Shown piece after piece: positions 19,703 to 34,728 of a stretch of DNA of 64,000 nt (its first letter is position 1; every line of letters starts with the position of its first letter). Source of the stretch: an uncultured Bacteroidales bacterium (GTDB lineage Bacteria; Bacteroidota; Bacteroidia; Bacteroidales; UBA932); the NCBI GenBank assembly GCA_944323345.1, contig CALUSC010000007.1, forward strand, positions 1-64,000, written 5' to 3'. The position numbers and the translations under genes are program-made. Under the pieces are notes generated by a model, which searched no databases, was not told the DNA's origin, and was given only the letters and a program-made list of their open reading frames with translations.

Positions 19703-20803
19703 TTATTTAGGCGCAATCTTGTACAGGACGCCGGCAATGGCTGCATAGAGGAAGTTAGGTGTCCACAGTGCAAGCCCCGGCGGCATTACTCCCGTATATA
19801 CGAACATTTCACTGAATCTCTGGAACAGAATATATGAGAAACTGAGGGCGATGCCGATACCTATGTTCCAGCCCATGCCTCCGCGCCGTTTCTTTGACGA
19901 CAGGGCCACGCCCATGATGGTAAGGATGAATGCGGAAAAAGGCATTGCGAACCTTTTGTGTTTTTCTATCAGGGCGTCCTTGATGTTGGCGTCCCCTCGC
20001 ATCTTCTGCGTGGCTATCAATTCGTTCAGTTCCCTGTAATTCAAGGATTCCAGGGTGTTTTTCTTTAGATAGAAATCCGCGACAGTCAGATTTATTACGG
20101 TGTCGAGCTGTTTCCCGCTCCTTATCTGGTCTTCGAGCGAATTGGTATAATCGCGGATGAAGTATTTCTTCAGTCTCCAGCCGTTGAATGTGGTATCCCA
20201 TACAGCCGTTTCAGCCGACAGTTTCGATACCAGCTGGTTATCTTCTATTTTTTCCAGAGTGAACCTGTATGCGGTATTGTTCCATGAACTGAATGACTCT
20301 ACGAAGACGAATTCTCCGGGAGCTATCTGGTAATGGATGTTGCGGTTATTGTTGCCGGTGTTCGATTTTATGTATTTGTTTTCGAACTGCACCAGCACCT
20401 TGTTCGAATTCGGGATGATGAACAGATTGAGGCACAGAGAGAATATCGCGATGATGGTCGCGGAGAAAATATAGGGGACCATCATTCTGTGAAAACTTAT
20501 CCCGCATGACAGTATGGCTATTATTTCGGAGTTGCCGGCCATCTTCGACGTGAAGAATATCACGGTGATGAATACGAACAGGGCGCTGAACATATTCATG
20601 AAGTAAGGTATGAAGTTGAAATAATAGTCTACAATGATTTCTTTCAGAGGGGCTTCCTTGCTGACGAAATCATCTATCTTTTCACTTATGTCGAATATGA
20701 TGACAATGCCGATGATGAGTATCAGGGCAACAAAGAAAGTAGTTATGAACTGCTTGATTATGTATAAGTCGATAAGTCTCGGCTTGAGGTCAAGATGTCT
20801 CAT
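19703..20803 (-). CDS. lptG: LptG-type permease of the LPS export system
   Basis: A 366-aa YjgP/YjgQ-family inner-membrane protein. With LptB and a partner permease it extracts lipopolysaccharide from the inner membrane. Three N-terminal membrane segments (about 15-37, 57-85 and 98-125), a periplasmic beta-jellyroll region (about 130-270) and three C-terminal segments are visible. It lies 10 nt downstream of tgt. A second, longer YjgP/Q permease is fused to Fmt at 29606-32092 and may be its partner. Confidence 0.85.
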   Translation of the reverse strand: MRHLDLKPRLIDLYIIKQFITTFFVALILIIGIVIIFDISEKIDDFVSKEAPLKEIIVDYYFNFIPYFMNMFSALFVFITVIFFTSKMAGNSEIIAILSCGISFHRMMVPYIFSATIIAIFSLCLNLFIIPNSNKVLVQFENKYIKSNTGNNNRNIHYQIAPGEFVFVESFSSWNNTAYRFTLEKIEDNQLVSKLSAETAVWDTTFNGWRLKKYFIRDYTNSLEDQIRSGKQLDTVINLTVADFYLKKNTLESLNYRELNELIATQKMRGDANIKDALIEKHKRFAMPFSAFILTIMGVALSSKKRRGGMGWNIGIGIALSFSYILFQRFSEMFVYTGVMPPGLALWTPNFLYAAIAGVLYKIAPK

Positions 20804-20813
20804 TTCCTTTTTC

Positions 20814-21944
20814 TTATAATCTTGTCATGATTCTGCGTACCGTAGTTTCCTTCCAGCTCTTGAAGTCGCCTGCCTTTATATGCTTCCTGGCTTCACGTAC
20901 CAGATCCAGATAAAAGGCGAGGTTATGTTCGCTGGCTATCTGTCCTGCGAATATTTCCTTGGCTATGAAAAGGTGCCTCAGATATGCCTTGCTGTATGTC
21001 CTGTCCACGAATGACGTCCCGGCAGGATCTATCGGAGAGAAGTCGTCTGCCCATTTCTGGTTTCTCATGTTCATGATGCCGTTCCAGGTGAAAAGCATTC
21101 CGTTCCGTCCGTTGCGGGTCGGCATCACGCAGTCGAACATGTCCACGCCGCGTTCTATGCCCTCCAGAAGGTTTGCAGGAGTCCCGACACCCATAAGATA
21201 TCTCGGCCTGTCGTCCGGCAATATCGGACATACCACTTCCAGCATTTCATACATCTTTTCCGTAGGTTCTCCTACCGAAAGCCCTCCTATGGCGTAACCT
21301 TCCCTGTCGAAAGAGGCTGCATGCTCTGCGGCTTCCCGCCGCAATTCAGGATAGACGCATCCCTGGACTATCGGGAAAAATGTCTGTGAATATCCGTACA
21401 GCGGCTCTGTCTCGTCGAAGTGTTTTATGCATCGTGCCAGCCATGATTCCGTCAGTCTGAGCGACTTTTTCGCATATTCGAAACTGGCGTCACCCGGAGT
21501 GCATTCGTCGAGGGCCATTATGATGTCCCCGCCAATGATTCTCTGCGTGTCGACATTGTTCTCAGGCGTGAAAGTATGTCTGGAACCGTCTATGTGCGAG
21601 GAGAAAGTACATCCGTCGGGAGTGAGTTTTCTGATAGGGGACAGCGAGAATACCTGGAATCCGCCGCTGTCCGTAAGTATCGGCCTGTCCCATGAGATGA
21701 ATTTGTGGAGCCCTCCGGCTGCCTTGAGGATATCCAGGCCAGGTCTCAGATACAGATGATATGTATTGCCGAGGATAATCTCGGCCTTTATGTCATCTTC
21801 CAGATCTCTGTGATATATGCCTTTGACAGAGCCGACTGTGCCTACGGGCATGAAGATAGGCGTCTCTATCTGCCCGTGGTCTGTGGTTATGATGCCGCAT
21901 CTGGCATTCGAGCCGGGATCGGAGGCTGTCTTGACAAACTTCAT
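20814..21944 (-). CDS. tgt: Queuine tRNA-ribosyltransferase lacking zinc-ligand cysteines
   Basis: Exchanges guanine-34 for preQ1 in tRNAs with GUN anticodons. At 376 aa it is full length. DSGGFQVFSL, MALDECTPGD, GGLSVGEP and the nucleophile region DCVMPTRNGRNG are intact. Where bacterial Tgt normally has PECDCYTC, this protein reads PAGTSFVD, so all three zinc cysteines are replaced while the His in SEHN remains. It heads a tgt-lptG transcript with a promoter about 20 nt upstream. queH of the same pathway lies 4 kb away. Confidence 0.95.
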   Translation of the reverse strand: MKFVKTASDPGSNARCGIITTDHGQIETPIFMPVGTVGSVKGIYHRDLEDDIKAEIILGNTYHLYLRPGLDILKAAGGLHKFISWDRPILTDSGGFQVFSLSPIRKLTPDGCTFSSHIDGSRHTFTPENNVDTQRIIGGDIIMALDECTPGDASFEYAKKSLRLTESWLARCIKHFDETEPLYGYSQTFFPIVQGCVYPELRREAAEHAASFDREGYAIGGLSVGEPTEKMYEMLEVVCPILPDDRPRYLMGVGTPANLLEGIERGVDMFDCVMPTRNGRNGMLFTWNGIMNMRNQKWADDFSPIDPAGTSFVDRTYSKAYLRHLFIAKEIFAGQIASEHNLAFYLDLVREARKHIKAGDFKSWKETTVRRIMTRL

Positions 21945-28949: not shown

Positions 28950-29609
28950 TCAGTCGAGAATGACGAGGGCGACGGACGGATGGCTGAATTCGAGATGCAC
29001 CGTGTCTTCGGACGCGCGGTTCAGGGTCGCTTTCCACCAGTTGTCGAACACCACGCCGTCGGTAGGCCATACGAGTCCTTTTGATTTGATATTCAGACTA
29101 TTGTCTGGAGAAAACAGCGAAAATGCACGGCCTTCCCCGCACTGGATGTCCACAGTGCCGGTAATGGCGAAAGCCGTAGACCAGTCGGAGACCATTTCGA
29201 TGTGAGGGCCGCCGGAGAAACAGCGGGCGTATTCCATCAGCAGCGACAGGTTTCCTATGGTATGATCCTCCCTGTCCCCTGTACCTCCCAGAATATAAAT
29301 ATCGGTCACATCGGGAAAATGATTCATGACGTATCTTACCGCCTTGGTCTGGTCATTGTCGTCCTGGCCTGTTTCATGGACAGTCAGGCCTTTGTACCGT
29401 GCAAGCGCCGTCCTGCTTACGGAATCCATGTCGCCTATGACCACGTCCGGCATCCTTTCGCCGCCGAAAACGGCTTCCATATTCCGGAAGTATTTCATCA
29501 GCGCACCGTCGCAGCATATAATGTAATCTGCATTTTTCAGCAGATATCTGGGATAGTCTTTCTTCGGGAATTTTCCGTTGTCGATGATTACGGCCGTTTT
29601 CATGTTCAT
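28950..29609 (-). CDS. Thiamine pyrophosphokinase
   Basis: Transfers pyrophosphate from ATP to thiamine to make thiamine diphosphate, the cofactor of Dxs. The 219-aa protein has the catalytic-domain motifs CCDGALMKY, VIGDMDSV and DDNDQTKAV near residues 84-90, then GGTGDREDHTIGNL. The C-terminal vitamin-B1-binding domain has FSLFSPDNSLNIKSKGL. Its ATG overlaps the stop of the upstream LptF-Fmt gene by 4 nt, indicating coupled translation. No riboswitch is visible. Confidence 0.92.
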   Translation of the reverse strand: MNMKTAVIIDNGKFPKKDYPRYLLKNADYIICCDGALMKYFRNMEAVFGGERMPDVVIGDMDSVSRTALARYKGLTVHETGQDDNDQTKAVRYVMNHFPDVTDIYILGGTGDREDHTIGNLSLLMEYARCFSGGPHIEMVSDWSTAFAITGTVDIQCGEGRAFSLFSPDNSLNIKSKGLVWPTDGVVFDNWWKATLNRASEDTVHLEFSHPSVALVILD

Positions 29610-32092
29610 GCTTTTATCGATTCACGATACTTGTCCAGGACCTCTGACGAAGTTCCTTTCGAGACTGTGTATGACTCGGGATCGCGGAAGCCCAGCAGGA
29701 AATCTTTCGCCGTCATTCTCTTCTTGCCGGCCATCTGTATGTCCGTCAATGCAATGATGCCGTCGGAGGCCGATATGGCCAGTATTTCTTTCCCGTCAGA
29801 CAATATTGTTCCGGCCGGAACACTTCCGCTCCTGCCGCAAAGTTTCATGAGCCTGCCGGTTTCTTCCGGACCCAGAAGTTCGGATGCGAAAATCTTTACA
29901 GGCAGAATCTTGCCGTCTTTGACCAGTTCGGTATATGCTGCAGGATACGGGCTCAGTCCGCGGATCAGGTTCCGTATCTCCTTTGCAGGTCTCTCCCAGT
30001 CTATGTGGCAAAGCTCCCGGCTGAGTTTCGGCGCAGGTTTGAGCACTTCGGAACCCTGTATGAAGCTTTTCTGCAGACGCAGTTCCACCTTCTTGTCGAA
30101 AATGGCTTCGATGGTATCCAGTACGGTACGGGCTCCTGTTTCCATGAGCTTGTCGTGTATCGTTCCGGCGTTGTCGTCATCTTCGATTCTGCACTGTTCC
30201 CTGAAGATGATATGTCCCGTATCCATGCCTTCATTTATCATGAAAGTAGTCACTCCGGTGAAGTGTTCGCCGTTGATTACCGCCCAGTTGATAGGGGCGG
30301 CGCCGCGGTATTGCGGGAGAAGTGCCGCGTGTAGGTTGAAGGTCCCGTATTTCGGCATGCTCCAGACTTCTTCCGGAAGCATGCGGAAAGCTACCACTAC
30401 AAACAGGTCGGCATTCCATGCCCGAAGTGCGGACAGGAATTCCGGATCTTTCAGGGAGACTGGCTGCAGTACCGGCAGACCATGTTCTACAGCATATTTC
30501 TTGACTGCGCTTTCATTGACTTTCAGTCCTCTTCCGCTGGCCTTGTCTGCTACCGTCACTACTCCGGCTACGGTATAACCGCTTTTCACAATTGCATCGA
30601 GGGATGCTACGGCAAATTCCGGAGTACCCATGAAAACTATCCTGGTCTTTCTCATTTTTCTCAAGACTTTGTTTTTGATCTTCCTGAACAGCAGCCCGAT
30701 TCTTTCGGTATCTATCAGGGATTTGTCATTTATGGCGTTCCAGGTGAACAGCAGGCCGATAGGCAGCAGTACCACGGATGAAATGAATACTCCTACGAAT
30801 GCCGAAACCGCACCGTCTTTCGCCAGCTTGTTCCCGGTAATGTCGATTACCCAGTACAAGACGAAGAACAGTACCGCAATGATGGCAGGCGTACCCAGGC
30901 CGCCTTTCCTGATCAGGGCACCGAGCGGGGCGCCGATGAAGAAAAATATGAAACAGGCGAACGAAAGGGCGAACTTTTTCAGGATTTCTACGTCTATTCT
31001 CCTTAAAGTCAGTGCGTTGTAGTAGCGTTCACGTCCGTATGTAGTAAGTTCCCCTATCGCCTCATTGACTTTCGAAATGGCATTCTTCTCCGCCTCTATC
31101 TCTTTTTCCAGATCATCCCACTTTCCGAAATTTTCATAGGAAAACGCCGATTTCAACTTGTCATTTCTCCTGTTGGCCGTATCCAGCTGGAAATGATATT
31201 TCAATGCCCTGTCCGTATAGAATCTGGCAATATTGTCCATCTTGGCATTCGAATCTATCCTTCCTATAGAATCCTCGCTGTGGTTCAGCTGTCTCAGGTT
31301 CATCGTCCTTACCTCATCGCCGAAGCGGGTGTTCTCCGACTTTTTGAAGGCATAGTTTTCGAGAGGTATGACCATTTCCTGCTTGTCGAATTCTATTTTC
31401 TGGAGCTGGAGGGTAGTGTCGCGGTATTTCCTGTTATTTGTCTCCTCGTAGTTTATTCCGCTGTAAAGTACGAATGTCAGATATGTCTTGTCTTCCGACA
31501 TTTTCATCATCGCGGAATCGGCCAGGGTCAGGCTGGTGTTCCCTTTCTTGCCTGTATGGTTGTACACCATGACGCCATGCATGATGCCGCTCTCCTTGTC
31601 TCTGTCTCCGACGCGCAGGATGTAGCCGTCTATACCGTCATAGAACGTTCCGGTAGGGATCTTGATTTCTTCCTTTGTTTTTCCGATATCGTCCCGGAGA
31701 GTGAAAATCTTGTTATACGCTACCGGGATAAGTTCGTTCGATATGAAAAAGGCGCCTACACTTATCAGGGCGGACACTATGATCAGAGGCATGAGCACTC
31801 TTTTAAGAGAGATACCTGCCGCCTTTATGGCCAGAAGCTCATTGTTCTCACCCAGTGTTCCGAGTGTCATCACCGCTGAAAGCAGGGTGGCAAGAGGCAG
31901 GGAAAGCGGGATCAGTGTCGCGCTTCCCCAACCTAAAAATTCCAGTATAACCTTGAAACTAAGTCCTTTGCCTACGAGTTCGTCGATGTACAGCCACAGA
32001 AACTGCATCATCAGTATGAAAATGACTACGAACAGGATCGCGAAGAACGGTCCTATAAACGAACTCAATATGAACCTGTCGAGTCTTTTCAT
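29606..32092 (-). CDS. In-frame fusion: LptF-type permease and methionyl-tRNA formyltransferase
   Basis: An uninterrupted 828-codon reading frame. Residues 1 to about 479 form a YjgP/YjgQ permease with membrane segments at about 10-35, 55-75 and 100-120, a periplasmic region and three C-terminal segments. From Met480 (ATG at 30655) a complete Fmt follows, with MRKTRIVFMGTPEFAV, FNLHAALLPQYRGAAPIN and NEGMDTGHII, then its C-terminal domain. Fmt formylates Met-tRNAfMet. There is no stop between the parts. Either a membrane-tethered Fmt is made, Fmt is also started at Met480, or a stop was lost in assembly. It lies 17 nt after alaS. Confidence 0.85.
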   Translation of the reverse strand: MKRLDRFILSSFIGPFFAILFVVIFILMMQFLWLYIDELVGKGLSFKVILEFLGWGSATLIPLSLPLATLLSAVMTLGTLGENNELLAIKAAGISLKRVLMPLIIVSALISVGAFFISNELIPVAYNKIFTLRDDIGKTKEEIKIPTGTFYDGIDGYILRVGDRDKESGIMHGVMVYNHTGKKGNTSLTLADSAMMKMSEDKTYLTFVLYSGINYEETNNRKYRDTTLQLQKIEFDKQEMVIPLENYAFKKSENTRFGDEVRTMNLRQLNHSEDSIGRIDSNAKMDNIARFYTDRALKYHFQLDTANRRNDKLKSAFSYENFGKWDDLEKEIEAEKNAISKVNEAIGELTTYGRERYYNALTLRRIDVEILKKFALSFACFIFFFIGAPLGALIRKGGLGTPAIIAVLFFVLYWVIDITGNKLAKDGAVSAFVGVFISSVVLLPIGLLFTWNAINDKSLIDTERIGLLFRKIKNKVLRKMRKTRIVFMGTPEFAVASLDAIVKSGYTVAGVVTVADKASGRGLKVNESAVKKYAVEHGLPVLQPVSLKDPEFLSALRAWNADLFVVVAFRMLPEEVWSMPKYGTFNLHAALLPQYRGAAPINWAVINGEHFTGVTTFMINEGMDTGHIIFREQCRIEDDDNAGTIHDKLMETGARTVLDTIEAIFDKKVELRLQKSFIQGSEVLKPAPKLSRELCHIDWERPAKEIRNLIRGLSPYPAAYTELVKDGKILPVKIFASELLGPEETGRLMKLCGRSGSVPAGTILSDGKEILAISASDGIIALTDIQMAGKKRMTAKDFLLGFRDPESYTVSKGTSSEVLDKYRESIKA

Positions 32093-32109: not shown

Positions 32110-34728
32110 TTATTTGCCTGTGGCGAGTTTAATCATCGTATCCATGGCATCGGAAAGTCCGGCTGTGTCCTTGCCTCCGGCCGTAGCCAGCCCCGGCTGG
32201 CCTCCGCCTCCTCCGAGTATGGACTTTGCGGCTTCCTTGATATCCTTGCCGGCATTGTGCCCGGCAGCCACCATGTCCGATGAATACATGATCATCAGCT
32301 GCGGCTTGCCTGCATATTCGAATGCGCCGAGCAGGGCCGTGTTTTCAGTTTCTTTCTGCAGCATGAACGCCGCGTTTTTCAGAAGCACGGGGTCGACAGG
32401 CATGTTGACTTTCACTACCTTGATTCCGTTCACCAGCTCTGCCTTGGCTTCAAGCTCTTTCTTCATGACCACGGCTTTTTCCTTCGCCACATTTTCCATC
32501 TCCTTCTTGTAGCGGTCGTTTTCTTCTATGAGTTTCCTGATAGAGCCGGCCAGGTCCGGAACATTGTTGAAAAGCGCACGCGCCGCCCTCAGAGTGTTTT
32601 CCATGGAGTCTACGATATCCTCGGCCTGGCGTCCTGTCGTGGCTTCTATCCTTCTCACTCCGGCAGCGATGGCTGATTCGGAAATGATCTTGAAGAAGCC
32701 TATCTGGCCTGTGGCACGGACATGCGTACCGCCGCAAAGCTCTATGGAATCGCCGAAGCGCACGACTCTCACCCTGTCGCCGTATTTTTCGCCGAACAGA
32801 GCCATGGCGCCCATTTCTTTCGCTTCTTCCATGGTGGCATTCCTGTTTTCACACAGCGGCGAATTAAGCCTGATCAGGGCATTGACACGTCTTTCCACTT
32901 CATCTATCTGCTCATCGGTAAGCTTCTCGAAGTGAGAGAAGTCGAACCTGAAATAATTTTCGCATACGTATGAACCTTTCTGCTCGACATGAGTACCCAG
33001 AATTTCTCTCAGAGCCTTGTGCAGCAGGTGTGTGGCCGTGTGGTTGTTCGTTATTCCGAGCCTCCTTTCCCCATCGACTTCCAGCCTGAACACTCCGGAA
33101 CAGTCCTCCGGTATGCTCTCTGCGATGTGGATCGTGAGGTTGTTTTCCTTTATGGTGTTGAGTATCCTGATTTTCTGTCCGGATGCGGATTCTATGTACC
33201 CGGTATCTCCCACCTGGCCGCCCATCTCGGCATAGAAAGGCGTCTTGTCGAATACGAGCTGGTACATTACTTTGTTCTTGGCCTTGACGGTACGATGTTT
33301 CACAAGTACGGCGCCGTCAGCCGAAGTCTGGTCGTAGCCGAGAAACTCTACGTTTTCGCAGTGCCGGAATTCCACCCAGTCTCCTGATTCAATGGCGGTA
33401 GCGTTCCTGGCCCTTTCCTTCTGCTTCTGCAATTCCTTTTCGAACCCCTCCAGATCTATTCTGAAGCCTCGTTCCGAGGCAATGAGTTCGCTCAGGTCGA
33501 TAGGGAACCCGAACGTATCGTACAATACGAAAGCGTCTTCACCTTTTATGAGTCTGGTATCTTCCGCTTTCTCCATGATGGTCTCTATCAGTTTGATACC
33601 TCTGTCAAGCGTGCGAAGGAACGCCATTTCCTCTTCCCGGATGACTTTTTCGATGAGAGTCTGCTGGGCAGGAAGTTCCGGATAAAATTCGCCCATGTCA
33701 TCCACCAGCTGTCCTACAAGCCTGCAAAGGAACGGTTCGTTGAATCCCAGGAACGTATATCCGTACCTGACTGCCCTTCTGAGTATTCGCCTGATGACAT
33801 ATCCTGCTTTCACGTTTGAAGGAAGCTGCCCGTCGGCTATGGAGAAACTTATGGCCCTGATGTGGTCGGCAATCACCCTCATGGCGACTTCCGTTTTTTC
33901 CGATTCGTGATAGCCGTGTCCGGAGAGTTCCTCTATCCTGGCTATCATGCCTGTGAATACATCGGTATCGTAGTTGCTGGTCTTGCCCTGAAGAGTCATG
34001 CAGAGCCTTTCGAATCCCATGCCGGTGTCGACATTTTTGTTCGGGAGCAGTTCCAGTTCACCGTTTGCCTTGCGGTTGAACTGCATGAAGACCAGATTCC
34101 ATATTTCGATTACCAGATGATGCCCCTTGTTCACGAGCTCGCGTCCCGGTACAGCCTTGCGCTCCTCTTCGGACCTGAGATCCACATGGATTTCGCTGCA
34201 AGGACCGCACGGCCCCGTATCTCCCATTTCCCAGAAATTGTCGTGCTTGTTGCCGAGCAGAATCCTGTCGGCAGGAAGATGCTTTTTCCATTCTTCGAGA
34301 GCTTCGTTGTCCATCCCGGTGCCGTCGGCGGCATCGCCTTCGAAAACCGTGGCGTAGAGCCTGTCCTTGTCTATCCCGTACACTTCAGTCAGAAGTTCCC
34401 ATGCCCATGAAATGGCCTCGGACTTGAAATAATCGCCGAAACTCCAGTTTCCGAGCATCTCGAACATGGTGTGGTGGTACGAGTCGTGGCCCACCTCTTC
34501 GAGATCGTTGTGCTTCCCGCTTACCCTTAAGCATTTCTGGCTGTCAGCCACTCTTTTATGCCGGGGAACGCTGTTGCCGAGGAAGAAGTCCTTGAACTGG
34601 TTCATGCCGGCATTCGTGAACATGAGCGTAGGGTCGTTCTTCACGACCATGGGTGCGGAAGGCACGATAGTATGCCCCTTGGATGCGAAAAAATCCAGGA
34701 AGGCCTTTCTTATTTCCTTTGAAGTCAT
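32110..34728 (-). CDS. alaS: Alanyl-tRNA synthetase
   Basis: Charges tRNA-Ala. The 872-aa protein has the class II catalytic domain from [15 protein letters not shown], with [13 protein letters not shown]. The tRNA-recognition domain follows. The editing domain has the zinc motifs [11 protein letters not shown] and CGGTHV. A C-terminal coiled coil and DHHA1 domain end in [14 protein letters not shown]. It heads an alaS-lptF/fmt-TPK transcript and has a leader hairpin. It is divergent from the M23 peptidase genes. Confidence 0.97.

Follow-up and report, generated by a model that had tools for sequence, protein, structure and literature searches.

A single open reading frame joins a complete LptF-type permease to a complete methionyl-tRNA formyltransferase (Fmt) in an uncultured Bacteroidales bacterium of the UBA932 family, a group of gut bacteria known mostly from metagenomes. 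This fusion is real and conserved, and it has probably arisen recurrently within the family. We consider it probable that the gene yields one bifunctional protein, a permease-tethered Fmt that arose by operon contraction and whose two activities are independent. Apparently this is a new architecture built from two known, functionally unrelated and widespread families, and undescribed in the open literature that we searched.

The LptF-Fmt frame and its two halves

The window analysed here is a stretch of 64,000 nucleotides from a draft genome (2.12 Mb, 62 contigs, 88% complete). The following features were identified in it.

29606 to 32092, minus strand: fused gene, LptF-type permease plus methionyl-tRNA formyltransferase, 828 aa
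30743 to 32077, minus strand: LptF/LptG permease domain, residues 6-450 (Pfam PF03739, E 5.8e-72)
30644 to 30730, minus strand: basic junction, residues 455-483 (RKIKNKVLRKMRK), with a helix at 462-480 of low confidence in the model
30653 to 30655, minus strand: ATG480, putative internal start codon for free Fmt in the window species (start-context score 8.41 bits)
30119 to 30643, minus strand: formyltransferase N-terminal domain, residues 484-658, with N586, H588 and D624 (Pfam PF00551, E 5.2e-35)
29687 to 30028, minus strand: formyltransferase C-terminal domain, residues 689-802 (Pfam PF02911, E 7.6e-21)
32110 to 34728, minus strand: alanyl-tRNA synthetase (alaS), upstream neighbour, 17-nt gap to the fused gene
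28950 to 29609, minus strand: thiamin pyrophosphokinase, whose ATG overlaps the TGA of the fused gene by 4 nt (ATGA)
19703 to 20803, minus strand: second LptF/LptG-family permease, best matched by the LptG model (TIGR04408, 160.3 bits, cut-off of 240 not reached)

The fused frame opens with an ATG at 32092, closes with a TGA at 29608-29606 and has no internal stop; on the plus strand the frame at the same coordinates is interrupted by stops. The preliminary description had placed an in-frame fusion at 29606-32092; it is present there, and its strand can now be specified as minus. The Pfam matches delimit a complete LptF/LptG-family permease (residues 6-450) and a complete Fmt (residues 484-802). 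PF03739 scored 243.1 bits against a gathering cut-off of 27.9 and was covered from position 1 to 351 of 353. The Fmt half exceeded the cut-off of the NCBIfam fmt equivalog TIGR00460 (237.5 bits vs 201.5). The cut-off of 230 of the NCBIfam LptF equivalog TIGR04407 (LptF_YjgP) was not reached by the whole protein (151.8 bits) or by the permease half (154.7 bits), and the permease is thus named LptF-type. It scores better with the NCBIfam LptF model than with the LptG model, and two unfused UBA932 relatives (L128 and L132, both tested) likewise fall under the LptF cut-off.

Residues N586, H588 and D624 do not vary among the 37 fused proteins aligned and correspond to N, H and D of E. coli Fmt (1fmt) in the alignment; we take them to be the catalytic residues, equivalent to E. 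coli N106, H108 and D144. E85, A88, K90 and G93 of the LptF half are also invariant in all 37 proteins. The Pfam matches, the fmt equivalog and the invariant catalytic residues bear out the earlier claim that both halves are complete and keep their key motifs. The strict N-x-H...LLP..RG pattern was found in 143 of 147 distinct fused loci, the other four showing only the looser pattern by which loci were found.

Among solved proteins, the best sequence match to the Fmt half is E. coli Fmt (1fmt, 1.1e-59), with ArnA at 4.5e-28, and the half is predicted from its sequence to be of the tRNA type, acting on Met-tRNAfMet. For the permease half, sequence matches to solved LptF and LptG chains are weak, the best reaching 1.5e-8. 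In a structure search, all of the best 50 matches listed cover the formyltransferase half; Fmt takes the first eleven places, and none of these 50 is a permease. The AlphaFold model of the fused protein has a mean pLDDT of 78.6, a pTM of 0.45 and a junction near 50; with this pTM and low-confidence junction, it gives no information on domain arrangement. LptF has six helices with both ends in the cytosol. This topology and the basic tail suggest that the Fmt half should lie in the cytosol.

The fused protein resembles several known systems in part. Like E. coli Fmt (1fmt, 2fmt), it has a two-domain Fmt that exceeds the equivalog cut-off and keeps the N-x-H and D, but the solved proteins stand alone, with about 315 aa, whereas here Fmt is the continuation of a membrane permease within a single frame. 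Like the LptF/LptG permeases of LptB2FG, it carries PF03739 over residues 6-450 and weakly matches the solved chains; unlike them, it runs on into Fmt, and it stays under the NCBIfam LptF cut-off. ArnA is also an LPS-linked protein in which a formyltransferase fold is fused to another part, a second enzyme domain. However, the substrate of ArnA is a sugar nucleotide, and the half found here is of the tRNA type. The closest counterparts are abutting lptF-fmt pairs of the same family (L128, L132), which have both genes in identical order but are separated by a stop and a start codon and make two proteins. Among the papers listed from a search of mainly open-access journals, none appeared to describe an LptF-Fmt fusion.

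The fused gene is the sole Fmt match in its genome, which is 88% complete. The same genome encodes LptB (361.3 bits, cut-off 240) and a deformylase over its model cut-off. The LptG-like gene at 19703-20803 is the likely partner of the LptF half. This permease (366 aa) directly follows tgt (region 19703-21944), about 9 kb from the fused gene. At the end of the fused frame, the ATGA overlap at 29606-29609 is of the kind that also links lptF and fmt in L132 and other unfused relatives.

Conservation, distribution and origin of the fusion

Among 37 genomes of the same genus, 33, including that of the window, have an uninterrupted frame through both halves. Four do not: G004 and G010 are apparently fragments at contig edges, G014 is without such a match, and the frame of G025 is broken in the LptF half (G025:C269:25702-28121), perhaps through an assembly error. 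Scanning named genome records gave 180 related stretches, and the best 80 all match across both halves (80/80); records matching the fused protein include Candidatus Cryptobacteroides and other Bacteroidales. The 109 loci L003-L111 all have an open frame that extends 450 codons or more upstream from the Fmt start motif; L098, which belongs to this set, contains a stop at some point within its matched stretch. Longer fused frames of 852-862 aa were observed in G027, G019, G033, G017 and G189, where the match to the window protein is broken between about residues 724 and 762, which points to an insert in the C-terminal domain of Fmt.

The window comes from a 62-contig draft, and an assembly or sequencing error could in principle have deleted a stop codon. 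The search of close relatives proposed in the preliminary description nevertheless recovered this frame in 33 of the 37 genomes of the genus, in every one of the 80 loci kept and in 50 of the 137 loci of the family, and what was named there as evidence against the fusion, a stop or frameshift shared by all close relatives, was not found. We regard such an error as having a negligible chance. It is refuted for the genus of the window and is possible for the single fused genomes of genera g26 and g47.

Our family sample comprised 149 genomes. At E<=1e-30, Fmt was matched in 138 of them (by a single match in 136 of the 138), and locus DNA was read in 137. Among these 137 loci, 50 are fused, 68 have separate lptF and fmt genes on one strand, and 19 are without lptF upstream within the stretch examined, some of these stretches being short. 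All loci read are fused in g1 (11/11), g39 (11/11), g40 (11/11), g30 (10/10), g41 (3/3), g27 (1/1) and g29 (1/1). Two genera are mixed, with one fused locus of three in g26 and one of two in g47, each represented in the fused state by one draft genome. Unfused pairs occur in 14 genera; the genes touch in 12 and lie about 1.2 kb apart in g31 and g32. In touching pairs, the Fmt alignment begins -19 to +45 nt from the lptF stop among the rows listed. The permeases of g45, g32 and g31 are long, with 627-636 aa, about 150 aa over the 480-500 aa of their relatives, and the one at L136 has no Pfam match past residue 455. Their positions are as follows.

L136, 3107-4996: long permease
L143, 5245-7128: long permease
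L144, 1876-3786: long permease

Wider samples were also searched with the fused protein; they overlap, and two best candidates per genome were scored, so that a very diverged fusion could be missed. The order sample (393 genomes, E<=1e-124) gave six matches, all in the same family, and no full-length match outside it; four of the six are fused, and G070 and G090 match by the LptF half alone. The class sample (395 genomes, E<=1e-124) and the phylum sample (395 genomes, E<=1e-110) returned only the genome of the window. An order search with the Fmt half (295 genomes) found only frames of 313-390 aa outside the family among the matches listed. An open frame of 821 aa reported in a second family (f15, G050; L141 3397-5841) looked fused, and we rejected it because the DNA has TAG and TAA between lptF and fmt.

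Gene order in relatives records the route to the fusion. The outgroup locus L152 has lptF, two glycosyltransferases, ribBA and fmt in this order, and L149 and L150 likewise have three frames between lptF and fmt. Only ribBA remains between them in g31 and g32. In most of the family lptF and fmt touch, and L132 has the same flanks as the window, alaS before and thiamin pyrophosphokinase after. The series thus passes from lptF-GT-GT-ribBA-fmt through lptF-ribBA-fmt and abutting genes to the fused gene. Once the genes touch, fusion needs just the loss of a stop or a small frame shift. Short overlaps of neighbouring genes reportedly couple translation and are enriched for complex subunits (PMC10666635), which fits a touching ancestral lptF-fmt pair.

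In a tree of 86 rows built from LptF plus Fmt, the fused label needs four changes of state, three of them forced by starred branches. A second tree of 46 rows under a mixture model again gave four changes, with four to five in bootstraps and a single change in 0 of 200. A single fused clade was rejected (p-AU 3.9e-55), as was a single fused clade without g47, a group picked after the first tree had been seen (p-AU 1.35e-4). Gains cannot be told from losses by such counts, and some nodes of the groups are weak; the simplest reading, in which we infer the direction of the changes, is an unfused base followed by about four fusions: g47; g1 with g41; g27 with g29, g39 and g40; and g30 with one g26. 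The neatest case is g47, where one draft genome is fused and its sister and g49 are unfused. Taken together, these data suggest that the fusion probably arose several times in the UBA932 family.

Start codons at the junction

The preliminary description had also raised internal initiation at the ATG at 30655 as a source of free Fmt. This ATG (30655-30653) is codon 480, as had been given. We scanned codons -22 to -4 before the GTP motif of Fmt. All 61 unfused loci read have a start codon there (53 ATG, 8 GTG/TTG). Among 147 distinct fused junctions, 86 have an ATG, 27 have GTG/TTG only and 34 have none, so that 61 of the 147 lack a nearby ATG. The absence of any ATG, GTG or TTG differs between fused (34/147) and unfused loci (0/61) with a Fisher p of 2.5e-6, the rows being related and not independent. 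This result led us to reject internal initiation as an account of all fused relatives, and it indicates that a separate Fmt start is not needed in several lineages.

The pattern varies among genera. No ATG was found in this interval in any fused locus read of g39 (10), g40 (11), g41 (3), g47 (1), g27 (1) or g26 (1); one is present in the single fused g29 locus and in 3 of 9 loci of g30. Under the labels g1 and g1*, the latter being loci not coded by genus one by one, an ATG is nearby in 82 of 110 distinct junctions, and 17 of the 110 are without any start codon. The position of this ATG shifts (-12, -9, -15, -10, -14 and others). Fused loci with GTG/TTG only have mostly poor contexts, with positive scores in 5 of 28: L109, L122, L161, L162 (g41) and L166 (g40), of which L109 and L162 are the same contig. 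A weak start is possible at these five.

Start contexts were scored with a matrix from 143 unambiguous starts among 288 genes in 464 kb, taken from 20 stretches of 20 kb plus the window (AUC 0.92). With 8.41 bits, ATG480 scores above 87% of the 143 real starts. Only 2 of 2868 internal ATGs, ATG480 included, score this high, and among 20000 synonymous recodings the share is 0.77%. When the comparison is limited to the 27 internal ATGs for which five or more of the preceding 10 codons are K/R/N, ATG480 alone reaches 8.41. The median best-ATG context is 3.2 in fused loci, 4.5 in unfused relatives and -4.6 in internal ATGs generally. Met480 is kept in 14 of 14 close relatives. Extra constraint on synonymous sites before ATG480 was not found in these 14 relatives (44th percentile of the gene). 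Internal initiation is not the general rule; what stands of the proposal concerns the window species, where the context of ATG480 is start-like and the synonymous sites before it are unconstrained. A free Fmt besides the fusion is possible in this species and perhaps in much of the genus.

Proposed function and evolutionary meaning

In the explanation that we favour, a single gene would give a single bifunctional protein. The LptF half would sit in the inner membrane and, paired with the LptG-like permease (19703-20803) and LptB, export LPS. At its C-terminus, a tail facing the cytosol would continue directly into a complete Fmt, the only one found in the genome, which would formylate Met-tRNAfMet. 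We infer full-length translation and activity of both halves. The LptF and Fmt activities would be independent, and fusion would add tethering and a fixed 1:1 output. Fmt is likely tethered to the membrane, most clearly where its half has no start codon. Operon contraction would have removed the genes between lptF and fmt until both touched; the stop or frame separation would then have been lost, probably several times in the family. Some free Fmt from ATG480 in the window species would be a compatible addition.

The strongest competitor is that the window species makes two products, the fusion and a free Fmt of about 38 kDa from ATG480, with the free form doing much of the formylation. We put this at somewhat less than an even chance; it overlaps the favoured explanation, and the weights given to the two are not mutually exclusive. 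It draws on the strong context of ATG480, rarely reached by recodings, on the conservation of Met480 and on the nearby ATG in 82 of 110 g1/g1* junctions. It has to face the unconstrained synonymous sites, the varying position of the g1/g1* ATG, the 17 of 110 junctions that have no start codon and the absence of ATG from the fused loci read of g39, g40, g41, g47, g27 and g26. Separate LptF and Fmt could also result if the whole polypeptide were cut at the junction, which is basic, variable and of low confidence in the model. By eye, however, the junctions of the fused lineages have no motif in common, and cleavage appears very unlikely. Even less probable, to the point of being barely credible, is that the formyltransferase half modifies an LPS sugar as ArnA does, and not initiator tRNA. 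Its partner is an LPS-export permease, and ArnA and sugar formyltransferases have the same fold, but the half exceeds the fmt equivalog cut-off, matches E. coli Fmt far better than ArnA (1.1e-59 vs 4.5e-28), is the sole Fmt match in the genome and occupies the place of the separate fmt of unfused relatives.

Tethering might instead link envelope building with translation, with Fmt positioned at or modulated by the LPS exporter. Repeated fusion in one family, and the lack of an unfused member among the loci read of g1, g30, g39 and g40, would fit this. Yet fusion in a contracted operon is an easy accident that is hard to undo and would leave the same pattern without benefit; moreover, unfused sister genera retain separate proteins, and neither conservation nor the one low-pTM model gives a sign of cross-talk. 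We judge such a link unlikely, and we are equally doubtful of its fuller form, in which an obligate, repeatedly evolved tethered Fmt couples LPS export to initiator-tRNA formylation in one regulated protein. Functional coupling of export and formylation is speculation. The preliminary description had suggested that a tethered Fmt would place translation initiation at the membrane. Formylation precedes initiation and charged tRNA can diffuse, so this does not follow.

The architecture appears to have become fixed several times in the family, and present-day relatives preserve its intermediate stages: gene loss, abutting pairs, fusion and loss of the internal start. UBA932 offers a natural experiment in how operons turn into fusion proteins. 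It also raises the question of whether an enzyme that modifies the tRNA of translation initiation can work only as a free cytosolic protein. Were the two halves coupled, envelope export would be linked to translation initiation.
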